From positions 1 through 64,000 of the forward strand of contig NZ_CAMHSK010000013.1 in assembly GCF_946187725.1 (NCBI RefSeq): a stretch of 64,000 nucleotides of DNA, written 5' to 3'. This DNA is from an uncultured Treponema sp. Lineage in GTDB: Bacteria; Spirochaetota; Spirochaetia; Treponematales; Treponemataceae. Below the pieces are notes generated by a model. The model made no database searches and had not been told where the DNA came from. It saw only the letters and a list, made by a program, of their open reading frames with translations. The translations under genes and the position numbers were made by a program. Shown piece by piece: positions 8,643-45,426 of the stretch (the stretch's first letter is position 1; the number at the start of each line of letters is the position of its first letter).

Positions 8643-9230
8643 ATGAAACGATTATTGTATAAAATTTCACTGATTTTACTTGCTTTTGCTTTCTTTTCTT
8701 GCATGACTTTGCCAGAAAAAGAAAAATGTTCTGACGAGCTTTTGGGAAAAGGACTAAAGGATTCAAAACAGCTTACCGCGTTTTTTATGAATCACAAGCC
8801 AGGTTTTCCTGACAGGAATAAAGTAGAGCGTCTTGCCCGATTGTATGTGAAAGAAGCTGCTATTGAAGGAATCAATTCGGATGTTGCTTTTGTGCAGATG
8901 TGTCATGAAACGGGCTTTCTTGGATTCGGGAATCTTGTTTTGCCGGAAATGAATAATTTCTGCGGACTTGGCGCAATGGATGCAGAACATCCCGGATTGT
9001 ATTTTGAAAGTGAAGAAATCGGTGTGCGTGCACATATTCAGCATCTTCAGGCATACGCTACCACTGCAGAAGTTGAACTGAAACAGGAATGTGTTGACCC
9101 TCGCTACAGCTGGCCGCATAAGACAAAATTTGCCCGCACAGTACATGACCTTGCTGGACACTGGGCCACCGACCCAGAGTATGGAACAAAACTGGAAAAC
9201 TTGCTAAGAGAATTAGAAATGACTAATTAA
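8643..9230 (+). CDS. Glucosaminidase-domain lipoprotein
   Basis: 195-aa predicted lipoprotein: a hydrophobic N-terminus ends at the lipobox AFFSC, Cys20. Residues about 45-190 match the glucosaminidase fold of peptidoglycan hydrolases, with the probable catalytic Glu89 in CHETGF and the family segment NNFCGLGAMD. It should cleave the glycan backbone of the cell wall at the periplasmic face. The last six codons, including the TAA stop, are made of an AATTAGAAATGA-type dispersed repeat (9211-9292), so the natural C-terminus may have been replaced. No ribosome-binding site is visible. Confidence 0.88.
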   Translation: MKRLLYKISLILLAFAFFSCMTLPEKEKCSDELLGKGLKDSKQLTAFFMNHKPGFPDRNKVERLARLYVKEAAIEGINSDVAFVQMCHETGFLGFGNLVLPEMNNFCGLGAMDAEHPGLYFESEEIGVRAHIQHLQAYATTAEVELKQECVDPRYSWPHKTKFARTVHDLAGHWATDPEYGTKLENLLRELEMTN

Positions 9231-9362
9231 AAATTAGAAATGAGTAATTAGAAATGAGTAATTAGTAATGAGTAATTAGTAATGAGTAATTATGGAAGCG
9301 GGACGAGGAAGCGATAGCGACCAATGTCCCGTTGTAATTTTTAATTGCACATTGCTAATTAT
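9211..9362. repeat. Composite inverted-repeat element between two convergent genes
   Basis: The left arm holds a 14-nt unit AATTAGWAATGAGT repeated four times (about 9233-9290). The core (9293-9333) is GC-rich, with CGGGAC (9299-9304) pairing with GTCCCG (9326-9331). The right arm (9334-9362) is an inverted copy of the left-arm type. The stop codons of the glucosaminidase gene (9228-9230) and of pyrH (9359-9361) lie in the two arms. The layout resembles a miniature inverted-repeat element without coding capacity. Confidence 0.75.
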
Positions 9363-14938: not shown

Positions 14939-15910
14939 ATGAAAACTATAGACCAAATCGCACAATTTTTCAATGAGAGTGAAGATTTTACCGGCAGCGT
15001 AAAGCAGAACGAAAATCTTTCGAAGCATACCACGATGAATGTCGGCGGAACGGCCAGAATTTTCCTTGAGCCGGAGAATGAAGAGAGCCTTATTTTTGCG
15101 ATAAAAGCGTTAGACGCGGATGTACGCGGAGACTCGCAGATAAAGAGTTTTTTTGTTTTGGGTGGCGGCTCGAATGTGATAATCAGCGACAACGGTCTTG
15201 ATGCGGTGATTTCTACCCGCAAGATAAATTCCATAAGTTTTTTTAACGCGGATAAACACGGATGCACGCAGATTTGTGTTTCGGCTGGCTCATCGTGGGG
15301 CAGCGTGCTTTCTTTTTGCAAGAAGAATAATCTTGGCGGATTTGAGGCTTTTACGGGGCTCAGCGGAACTGTTGGTGGCGCGCTTTTTATGAACGCGACC
15401 TGCTTCGGACTCAGTGCGTGCGATAATTTGATTAGCGTGCGATATTTTGATTTGAATGACGGAAAGATTCATGAATACGAGAAAGTTGATTCCGACTGGG
15501 GCTACAAGAAATCCCCGTTCCAATTGCTAACTGCTCATTGCTCATTGCTAATTTCTAAAGTAATCCTTTCCGCAAAATTTTCTGTCAAAAACGGGTTCGA
15601 TTCCGAAAAATCTGAAAAATGTATGAGCGACCGCAGGGAAAAGGGGCATTTTCGCGCACCAAGTTCGGGTTCGGCCTTCAAAAATGACGCGGCTCACGGA
15701 ATCATTGCGGGCAAAGTGATTGACGAATGCGGCTTAAAAGGTTTCGCAGTTGGCGGGGCGCAGATTGCGCCGTGGCACGGGAATTTTATTGTCAATCCTG
15801 AGCGCAAAGCAACTGCTTCTGATATAAAAAAACTTTCCGATGAGGTTAAAAAAATCGTTTTGGAAAAAACAGGAATCGTTCTGGAAAATGAAATTCTGTT
15901 TGTTTCTTAG
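14939..15910 (+). CDS. murB: UDP-N-acetylenolpyruvoylglucosamine reductase with three short insertions
   Basis: 323-aa FAD enzyme of peptidoglycan precursor synthesis, reducing enolpyruvyl-UDP-GlcNAc to UDP-MurNAc. FAD-binding features are clear: HTTMNVGGTA, LGGGSNVIISD and the SGTVGGALFMNA turn; the proton-donor Ser lies in PSSGSAFKN and the C-terminal Glu in VLENEILF. Three peptides encoded by dispersed repeats interrupt it in frame: residues 59-69 (15113-15145), 103-111 (15245-15271) and 196-206 (15524-15556). Each falls between conserved blocks where the family has a loop, so the enzyme is probably functional; murB is normally essential. Confidence 0.94.
   Translation: MKTIDQIAQFFNESEDFTGSVKQNENLSKHTTMNVGGTARIFLEPENEESLIFAIKALDADVRGDSQIKSFFVLGGGSNVIISDNGLDAVISTRKINSISFFNADKHGCTQICVSAGSSWGSVLSFCKKNNLGGFEAFTGLSGTVGGALFMNATCFGLSACDNLISVRYFDLNDGKIHEYEKVDSDWGYKKSPFQLLTAHCSLLISKVILSAKFSVKNGFDSEKSEKCMSDRREKGHFRAPSSGSAFKNDAAHGIIAGKVIDECGLKGFAVGGAQIAPWHGNFIVNPERKATASDIKKLSDEVKKIVLEKTGIVLENEILFVS
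15113..15145 (+). repeat. ACGCGGAT-type repeat inserted in frame in murB (first)
   Basis: 33 nt, 11 codons (D59-K69), composed of GACGCGGAT, TACGCGGA and CGCAGATAAAG blocks, matching the repeat pair upstream of fusA. It sits just before the strand leading to LGGGSN. Confidence 0.7.
15245..15271 (+). repeat. ACGCGGAT-type repeat inserted in frame in murB (second)
   Basis: 27 nt, 9 codons (N103-Q111): AACGCGGATAAAC, ACGGAT and GCACGCAG blocks of the same family, placed between two beta strands of the FAD-binding domain. Confidence 0.65.
15522..15557 (+). repeat. GCTAACT/GCTCATT repeat inserted in frame in murB (third)
   Basis: Short GCTAACT, GCTCATT, GCTCATT, GCTAATT units in tandem; 33 nt, 11 codons (L196-S206) lie between the conserved YKKSPFQ and KVILSAKF. 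The same units make the 8-fold array at 32084-32139 and, in opposite orientation, the insertion in mnmE. Confidence 0.75.
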
Positions 15911-32083: not shown

Positions 32084-32139
32084 GCTAACTGCTAACTGCT
32101 AACTGCTAACTGCTAACTGCTAACTGCTAACTGCTAACT
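32084..32139. repeat. Tandem heptamer array (GCTAACT) x 8
   Basis: Eight perfect consecutive copies of GCTAACT. The last copy overlaps the stop codon of hslO (TAG, plus-strand CTA at 32138-32140). The same unit, less regular, is inserted in murB (15522-15557) and mnmE (44193-44226). Confidence 0.95.
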
Positions 32140-44004: not shown

Positions 44005-45426
44005 ATGACGAACTTAAAATATACGCCTGAAGAACCGATTGCAGCGATTGCAACTGCTTTAGCGCCTGGTGCGCTTGGAATCGTGCGTTGTTCAGGTAAA
44101 AACTGCATTGAACTATTCTCAAAAATCTTCTCAAGGCCAAAAGCCCTGCTTGAAGCAAACGGAAACACAATCGTTTACGGATGGGTTCAGAAAGTTAGCA
44201 GTGAGCAATTAGCAATTAGCAGTTGTGAAAGAATTGATGAGGTTCTTGTTTCTGTTTTCCGCGCTCCGAAGTCTTTTACTGGCGAAGATATGATTGAGAT
44301 TTCATGTCACGGCGGGGTTCATGTCGTTCAGTCTGTCTATAATCTTCTATTAAATAGTGGATTCCGTGCGGCTGAAAGGGGAGAATTCACTTTCAGGGCT
44401 TACATCAATGGCAAAACTGATTTGACAAAAGCTGAGGCTGTTCGCGAGATAATCGATTCAAAAACGGATGCGGGGCAGAGCAGGGCTGCAGGAAGACTTG
44501 CCGGAAATCTTTACGCAACGATTGATGAAGTAAAAAAACATATCATTGATACTCTGGCGGCTATTGAGGTTGAAATTGAGTATCCTGAAGATGAGGAAAC
44601 AATTGCGGATTCCTTTGATTCTTCTGAACTTAAAAAGGCCGAAAAAGTGCTTGAAGAACTTGCTGCTTCATGGAAGAGCGAGAAAATCTATCAGGACGGT
44701 GCGAGGGTTGTTCTTTGTGGCCGGACAAATGCCGGAAAATCATCACTTTTTAACGCCCTTCTCAAAGAAGACCGTGCGATTGTAAGCGATATTGAAGGCA
44801 CGACCAGAGATTTTATCGAAAGCTGGATTGATTTTTCAGGAATTCCGGCAAGGCTTTTTGATACGGCAGGTTTACGGCAGACAGATGATGTTATTGAGGC
44901 TGTCGGAGTTGAGCGGACTCATGATTTAAGTGAGGAAGCTGACCTGATTCTTTACCTTGTCGATTCAAATGCCGGGCTGACAGAAGATGACAAGGCTTTC
45001 ATAACTGAGCATGTAAGATTCGGTATGGATGAATCAAAAAAATCCATTCCGCTGATTCTTGTATGGAATAAATGCGATTTGAAGGGAGAGTCGGATTTGC
45101 CGTCGCTTTCTATCCCCCAGGTTCATATTGCCGCAAAAAAAGGAATAGGACTTGGAGAACTTAGTGAGGCTGTCCGCAAGGCTCTTTCAGCTGGTGAAAG
45201 CAGTGAGCGAAACATTACGGGGCTTGGCTCACAGCGTCAGAAAGACAGCGTTGAGCGGGCACTTGAAAGCGTGCGTCATGCACTGTTCTTAAGTGAAGAT
45301 TACGCTCTTGATGCTGTTGTCCAGGATTTGGAAGATTCCCTTGATGCACTTGGTGAAGTTACCGGTGATGTAACGCCAGACGATGTGCTTGGATCAATTT
45401 TCGAGCATTTCTGTGTTGGAAAGTAG
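44005..45426 (+). CDS. mnmE: tRNA modification GTPase MnmE with a repeat-derived insertion
   Basis: 473 aa. With MnmG it modifies U34 of several tRNAs. N-terminal tetrahydrofolate-binding domain (ALAPGALGIVRCSG), G domain with P-loop GRTNAGKSS, DIEGTTRD, DTAGLR and NKCD, and the C-terminal FCVGK in place of the usual FCIGK, keeping the Cys. Residues 64-74 (VSSEQLAISSC) are encoded by a TTAGCAGT/GAGCAATTAGC dispersed repeat and lie between the strand ending GWVQ and the conserved DEVLVSVFRAP, a variable loop. The ATG abuts the stop of the upstream gene. Confidence 0.96.
   Translation: MTNLKYTPEEPIAAIATALAPGALGIVRCSGKNCIELFSKIFSRPKALLEANGNTIVYGWVQKVSSEQLAISSCERIDEVLVSVFRAPKSFTGEDMIEISCHGGVHVVQSVYNLLLNSGFRAAERGEFTFRAYINGKTDLTKAEAVREIIDSKTDAGQSRAAGRLAGNLYATIDEVKKHIIDTLAAIEVEIEYPEDEETIADSFDSSELKKAEKVLEELAASWKSEKIYQDGARVVLCGRTNAGKSSLFNALLKEDRAIVSDIEGTTRDFIESWIDFSGIPARLFDTAGLRQTDDVIEAVGVERTHDLSEEADLILYLVDSNAGLTEDDKAFITEHVRFGMDESKKSIPLILVWNKCDLKGESDLPSLSIPQVHIAAKKGIGLGELSEAVRKALSAGESSERNITGLGSQRQKDSVERALESVRHALFLSEDYALDAVVQDLEDSLDALGEVTGDVTPDDVLGSIFEHFCVGK
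44193..44226 (-). repeat. GCTAACT/GCTAATT repeat inserted in frame in mnmE
   Basis: Read on the minus strand it is AACTGCTAATTGCTAATTGC and so on, the same units as at 15522-15557 and 32084-32139, in opposite orientation to the murB copy. It adds 33 nt, 11 codons. Confidence 0.75.

Follow-up and report, generated by a model that had tools for sequence, protein, structure and literature searches.

The murB gene of this treponeme (14939–15910, + strand; 323 amino acids), which encodes UDP-N-acetylenolpyruvoylglucosamine reductase and is present as a single copy in the genome, contains three repeat segments, two decad arms and one heptad array, all in frame and all flanked by conserved blocks. 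The gene lies in the 64,000-nucleotide stretch of DNA analyzed here (hereafter the window), which comes from a genome assembly of 3.27 Mb in 80 contigs. The repeats are present as dispersed copies, occupy in-frame positions in genes, are absent from or replaced in the orthologous loops, are restricted to a clade and are depleted in coding DNA. We consider it very probable that several small non-autonomous repeat families spread, that within coding sequence they persist only at permissive loops, and that the MurB peptides are passengers. Rickettsia is the best-known case of selfish repeats residing in frame within conserved genes; the present case is from a distant phylum and involves several families at once, and close relatives provide the empty, filled and refilled states of a single loop. 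The origin of protein insertions from selfish DNA, the loops that tolerate them and the rate of their turnover can thus be tested directly, and caution is required, because loop differences in such enzymes need not be adaptive.

Site 1 is a 28-nt decad arm (ACGCGGATGTACGCGGAGACTCGCAGAT; 15114–15141, + strand) encoding the peptide LDADVRGDSQIK, with a helix-type segment on one side and FFVLGGGSN on the other. Site 2 is a second 28-nt decad arm (ACGCGGATAAACACGGATGCACGCAGAT; 15246–15273, + strand) encoding NADKHGCTQI in a length-variable loop. Each of these two arms consists of exactly three ACGCRGAT octamers with 2-nt linkers. Site 3, directly after KKSPFQ, is composed of four GCTMAYT heptads (GCTAACT, GCTCATT, GCTCATT and GCTAATT, in that order; 15526–15553, + strand) and encodes LLTAHCSLLIS. 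Translation of these peptides is inferred from the open frames. The blocks characteristic of MurB (GGGSN, YKxSPF, SSGSAFKN, AGKVIDECGLKG and GGAQIAPWHGNFIVN) are all intact. An earlier reading of the sequence alone (hereafter the sequence-only reading) had placed in murB three in-frame segments from two dispersed repeat families, flanked by conserved blocks and leaving the active-site motifs unaffected, and both statements held at the places indicated. The three-unit decad pattern matched the window once, versus no match in any of 100 shuffled sequences; 14 matches were obtained for the two-heptad pattern, versus 0.4 expected, so chance can be excluded for the murB repeats. The lengths of 33, 27 and 33 nt initially attributed to the insertions are those of the peptide spans; the repeats themselves are 28 nt each, and the net gains differ again. 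The placement of residues 59–69, 103–111 and 196–206 in surface loops remains a prediction, based, like the loop placement in RimO and MnmE, on alignment with solved sequences and on tolerated length variation. A single-sequence AlphaFold2 model of MurB (mean pLDDT of 35) was uninformative and was not used as evidence. A near-perfect 19-bp tandem direct repeat elsewhere in murB (15416–15452) did not qualify as a fourth insert: it encodes SACDNLISVRYFD, which is conserved in relatives without extra length, and it is apparently a codon coincidence.

Comparison with orthologs provided different levels of support for the three sites. Site 1 is six residues longer here than in all 49 of the other family members in an alignment of 50 MurB sequences, a net gain of 18 nt. 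When closer relatives were added, the sister genome G152 was found to have a longer form (LDADERRCTQIK, encoded by TTAGACGCTGATGAACGCAGATGCACGCAGATTAAA; net gain of 27 nt), and the remaining MurB sequences had a 12-residue baseline, the repeat being present otherwise only in this sister. A single gain in the common ancestor of the two genomes explains site 1 (minimum number of changes, 1). At site 3, the more distant treponemes have just a few residues after KKSPFQ, and every genome of the close clade has an insert, but from differing families: heptads in this genome, a CACAGAG hairpin in G113, and a GC-rich element beginning with GGGGGCGTTGCGGGG in G152, G096, G143, G144, G132, G146, G052 and, in part, G133. 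Decad units precede the GC-rich element in several of these genomes. The net gain at site 3 is about 24–27 nt; as the gains at sites 1 and 3 both fall short of the 28 nt of the repeats, some sequence must also have been lost. The loop at site 2 is variable in length in all treponemes. It contains a different decad arm and a degenerate CACAGAG-like stretch in G152 and CACAGAG hairpins in G096, G143 and G114; the net insertion here is small and, in a naturally variable loop, less certain. Thus, of the three insertions proposed, those at sites 1 and 3 are supported, whereas site 2 alone provides no proof. Repeat-free MurB sequences from relatives carrying the same peptides would have refuted the proposal, and none was found in the ortholog comparison.

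Host-gene orthologs were compared for MurB, RimO and MnmE only, and the last two also displayed different elements in the same loop. The mnmE array of heptads (44193–44220, − strand) lies in frame within an ORF on the + strand (44005–45426), encoding VSSEQLAISSC in the YGW..IDEVL loop. This loop contains the same heptads in G133, GGAAAAC/CTTTCCA heptads in G152 and G113 (in which the GGAAAAC heptads are also dispersed), a GC-rich element in G104 and G154, and no element in G143, in which it is short. The RimO loop, of about 54 residues here versus about 6 in T. maritima, contains a decad hairpin in this genome and G133, a different element (the T-element) in G152 and G132, a GC-rich element in G144, and none in G113 and G143. 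On a core-protein tree, the minimum number of state changes was five for MurB site 3, five for RimO and four for MnmE. The deep nodes of this tree are weak (51–82%), and the order of replacement, like that of gains and losses, is inferred, by parsimony. The distribution of shared elements does not fit the tree, implying either repeat entry of one family into the same loop or an exchange of loop alleles. The second of these possibilities, in which gene-segment recombination swaps loop alleles between species and the patchwork reflects exchange more than repeated insertion, is considered unlikely. In its favor, this genome and G133, which are not sisters, have nearly identical decad hairpins in RimO, as do G152 and G132 for the RimO T-element. 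It nevertheless leaves the origin of the elements unexplained, together with states found in a single genome (the heptads of MurB site 3 and the nonad hairpin of G113), and the T-element, heptads and decads are all present elsewhere in this genome.

Residence in coding sequence is not limited to these three genes. In a 702-kb sample of this genome, partly picked around repeats, 16 of the 86 repeat clusters were intragenic, flanked on either side by coding signal, and two more were borderline. A few of the short matches among the 16 may be due to chance, and the number of in-frame intragenic clusters is about 15–18 of the 86 sampled. Ten host genes were named, and confirmed as genuine genes, with Pfam and NCBIfam: those for MnmE, FolE2, UvrC, a methyltransferase, RsuA-like and RluA-like pseudouridine synthases, an MsbA-like exporter, an ABC-F protein (heptads plus a second repeat), TrhP and RimO, the last of which holds an entire in-frame decad hairpin of 76 nt. 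The suggestion that elements resembling the Rickettsia palindromic elements (RPEs) can insert into genes, with toleration of the additional peptides, was supported by the absence or replacement of the repeats in ortholog loops and by their in-frame presence in about 10 other housekeeping genes. The unbiased part of the sample (451 kb) is about 92% coding, yet only eight of its 24 clusters were intragenic (nine with murB site 1, which is missed by the automatic intragenic rule and is intragenic by homology); so small a share fits the purging of most coding insertions. None of 22 decad clusters lay between divergent genes, versus 53 divergent pairs among 336 gene pairs. Two host genes have several arrays: the RluA-like pseudouridine synthase ORF (L269:2116–3561) has three separate in-frame heptad arrays in its N-terminal half, and the methyltransferase ORF (L101:9129–10421) has an 80-nt heptad array and a single decad arm near its 3′ end, so that, like murB, it combines two families. 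An intragenic nonad match in G113 (L415:3045) was discarded as probably due to chance, with no inserted segment evident.

Under the explanation favored here, the repeats belong to unrelated families of very small elements. These are the 28-nt decad arm, which is usually paired in a hairpin, arrays of the GCTMAYT heptad, hairpins built from the CACAGAG nonad, and GC-rich elements about 75–100 nt long. Copies would land, or be copied, at many sites through an unidentified activity. Intragenic copies would be kept if the net change were frame-neutral and stop-free and fell in a loop tolerating extra residues, selection would purge most coding insertions, and the few tolerant loops would be repeatedly hit, trimmed and refilled, with elements exchanged, across species. 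Protein loops would then seem to be reusable landing sites for dispersed repeat DNA. The neutrality of the MurB peptides is an inference, as is the attribution of the effect mostly to selection rather than to targeting. We regard as improbable the further view in which the loops are hot-swap sites and a dedicated, unidentified activity, in addition to selection against other positions, directs several unrelated families into the same codons of the same essential genes; if it were true, loop peptides would be exchangeable cassettes across a bacterial clade. No mobilizing enzyme was identified in the analysis. The RAYT (Y1 transposase, PF01797) was ruled out as a general driver, with no match to this family in this genome or in the high-copy genomes G113, G109 and G104. 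No target-site duplication was demonstrated: in a test on 16 hairpins, the mean longest direct repeat was 5.1, versus 4.6 in shuffled sequences (P 0.05), in flanks that are AT-rich.

The genome-wide search confirmed that both families are dispersed. The heptad pattern (21 nt, with at most two mismatches) gave 169 matches versus 0 for a reversed-pattern control, and the decad pattern (18 nt, with at most one mismatch) gave 79 versus 4. Forty-five decad arms from the 702 kb were aligned (unit ACGCRGATNN; full arm consensus ACGCRGAT-NN-ACRCRGAT-NN-ACRCRGAT). All had exactly three units and none had a fourth on either side, so the decad arm is a discrete element; its 5′ flank is mostly TTAG or TTTG. 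Sixteen pairs formed arm-loop-arm hairpins with 28 nt per arm, most with loops of 0–20 nt and a total size of 56–76 nt. The repeats upstream of fusA, to which the blocks of sites 1 and 2 had been likened, belong to the same family as these blocks and are the two arms of one intergenic decad hairpin (244–271, + strand, and 334–361, − strand); unlike them, the decad copies in murB are single arms. The heptads of site 3 likewise recur in an intergenic array of eight GCTAACT units (32084–32139, + strand). A rival account, in which each loop held a short seed that replication slippage expanded locally, without the arrival of copies, is poorly compatible with these features and very doubtful. Short tandem units can expand in this way, and heptad arrays do vary from three to about 12 units, but the same heptad and decad consensus sequences occur at tens of unrelated sites, inverted-arm hairpins are beyond simple slippage, and the constancy of three units refutes it for the decads.

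We likewise give little credence to selection for the peptides themselves, with loop length or charge adapting the enzymes and the repeats serving as raw material. The insert at MurB site 3 is indeed kept, in changing form, by all members of the close clade, as well as by G146, G114 and G052, but the peptides found at this position are unrelated and range from 11 to about 45 residues, and in G109, G150 and other treponemes no more than a few residues are present. Finally, the view that these are ordinary variable loops with a repeat likeness due to chance or to assembly artefact has almost nothing left to it and is refuted for sites 1 and 3, since despite the variability of site 2 in all treponemes there were no matches in shuffles, the site 1 repeat recurs in the independent assembly of G152, and the intragenic copies are open and in frame.

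The passenger repeats were compared with known systems of short repeats. RPEs (Ogata et al. 2000 Science; Ogata et al. 2002 Genome Res.; summarized in PMC10969869) are short dispersed repeats that fall into several families. Many lie in frame within housekeeping genes, where they are predicted to fit the protein fold, and they are interpreted as selfish DNA. The Treponema repeats share with them the multiplicity of dispersed families and in-frame residence in conserved protein-coding genes. Unlike RPEs, they occur in a gut-type spirochaete rather than in an obligate intracellular bacterium, consist of units of 28–100 nt and tandem heptads or decads rather than palindromes of about 150 bp, and include different families filling the same loop in sibling species. 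The murB repeats, which are half-elements or tandem heptads without palindromic folding (fold z of −1.0 to −1.5), fail the palindrome or hairpin criterion for RPEs, which is met by the RimO decad hairpin (z of −6.5). By analogy, the Treponema repeats may work like RPEs without being members of an RPE family, although no comparison with RPE sequences underlies this assignment. Elhai and colleagues are said to have associated the small dispersed repeats (SDRs) of cyanobacteria with tandem heptamers. SDRs (Elhai et al. 2008, cited in PMC4390886) are elements of 21–28 nt that look mobile and have no known transposase. They are the nearest known system in size, although sequence identity to SDR families was not compared: in both cases, mobile-looking repeats of 21–28 nt, or tandem heptamers, are dispersed in many copies without a known transposase, and recurrent in-frame residence in protein loops is the distinguishing feature here. 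REP/REPIN sequences, associated with RAYTs, are also short, inverted-arm elements with many copies, mostly intergenic (PMC3116915, PMC3733652); the Treponema repeats have the same general form, but many of their copies are intragenic, no GTAG/CGTC tag has been defined for them and no Y1/RAYT domain was found in the genome. Bacterial MITEs are non-autonomous and are sometimes fused in frame to host genes (PMC10969869), as are some of the Treponema repeats, for which, however, no terminal-inverted-repeat and target-site-duplication structure or parent insertion sequence has been shown. No published account of these repeat sequences was found in the open-licence literature searched.

The families have restricted distributions among the treponemes. 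Heptads are abundant only in this genome, G143, G113, G152 and G133 (169, 195, 78, 68 and 28 matches, respectively), with at most three matches in any of the 54 other genomes of the genus searched. Decads reach high numbers (35–241 matches) in seven of 118 genomes of the family, four of which (this genome, G096, G113 and G114) also have dispersed-repeat inserts in MurB, and nonads are abundant mainly in G096 and G113. Beyond the family, the three-unit, 28-nt decad pattern was found, among the matches listed, in cyanobacteria, Chloroflexi, Acidobacteria, Verrucomicrobia, Geobacter, a Bacteroides and an archaeal bin; because it matches many bacterial phyla among those listed, the process may be common across bacteria. 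The listed matches (L139–L255) include heterocystous cyanobacteria and a Methanosarcinales bin.

Several minor features were also observed. An array of AATTAGAAATGAGT units in the window (9211–9292; 14-nt period, 4.4 copies) shows, on the opposite strand, a relationship to the heptad family, and two tandem 96-bp copies (23–214) resemble a duplicated tRNA gene. In decad hairpins (for example, L104:16266–16331, L125:1501–1576 and L257:3130–3198), one side tends to have the TTAG flank and the other the TTTG flank. The two-base linkers of the two arms avoid complementarity in the 16 hairpins of this genome: 4 of 64 positions matched, versus 32% in shuffled arm pairs, and none of 4000 shuffles was as low. 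The four hairpins of G113 gave the same direction (P 0.08), and decad-pattern hairpins from other phyla gave the opposite trend. The pattern, which is unexplained, gives the impression of internal loops being enforced at 10-nt intervals.
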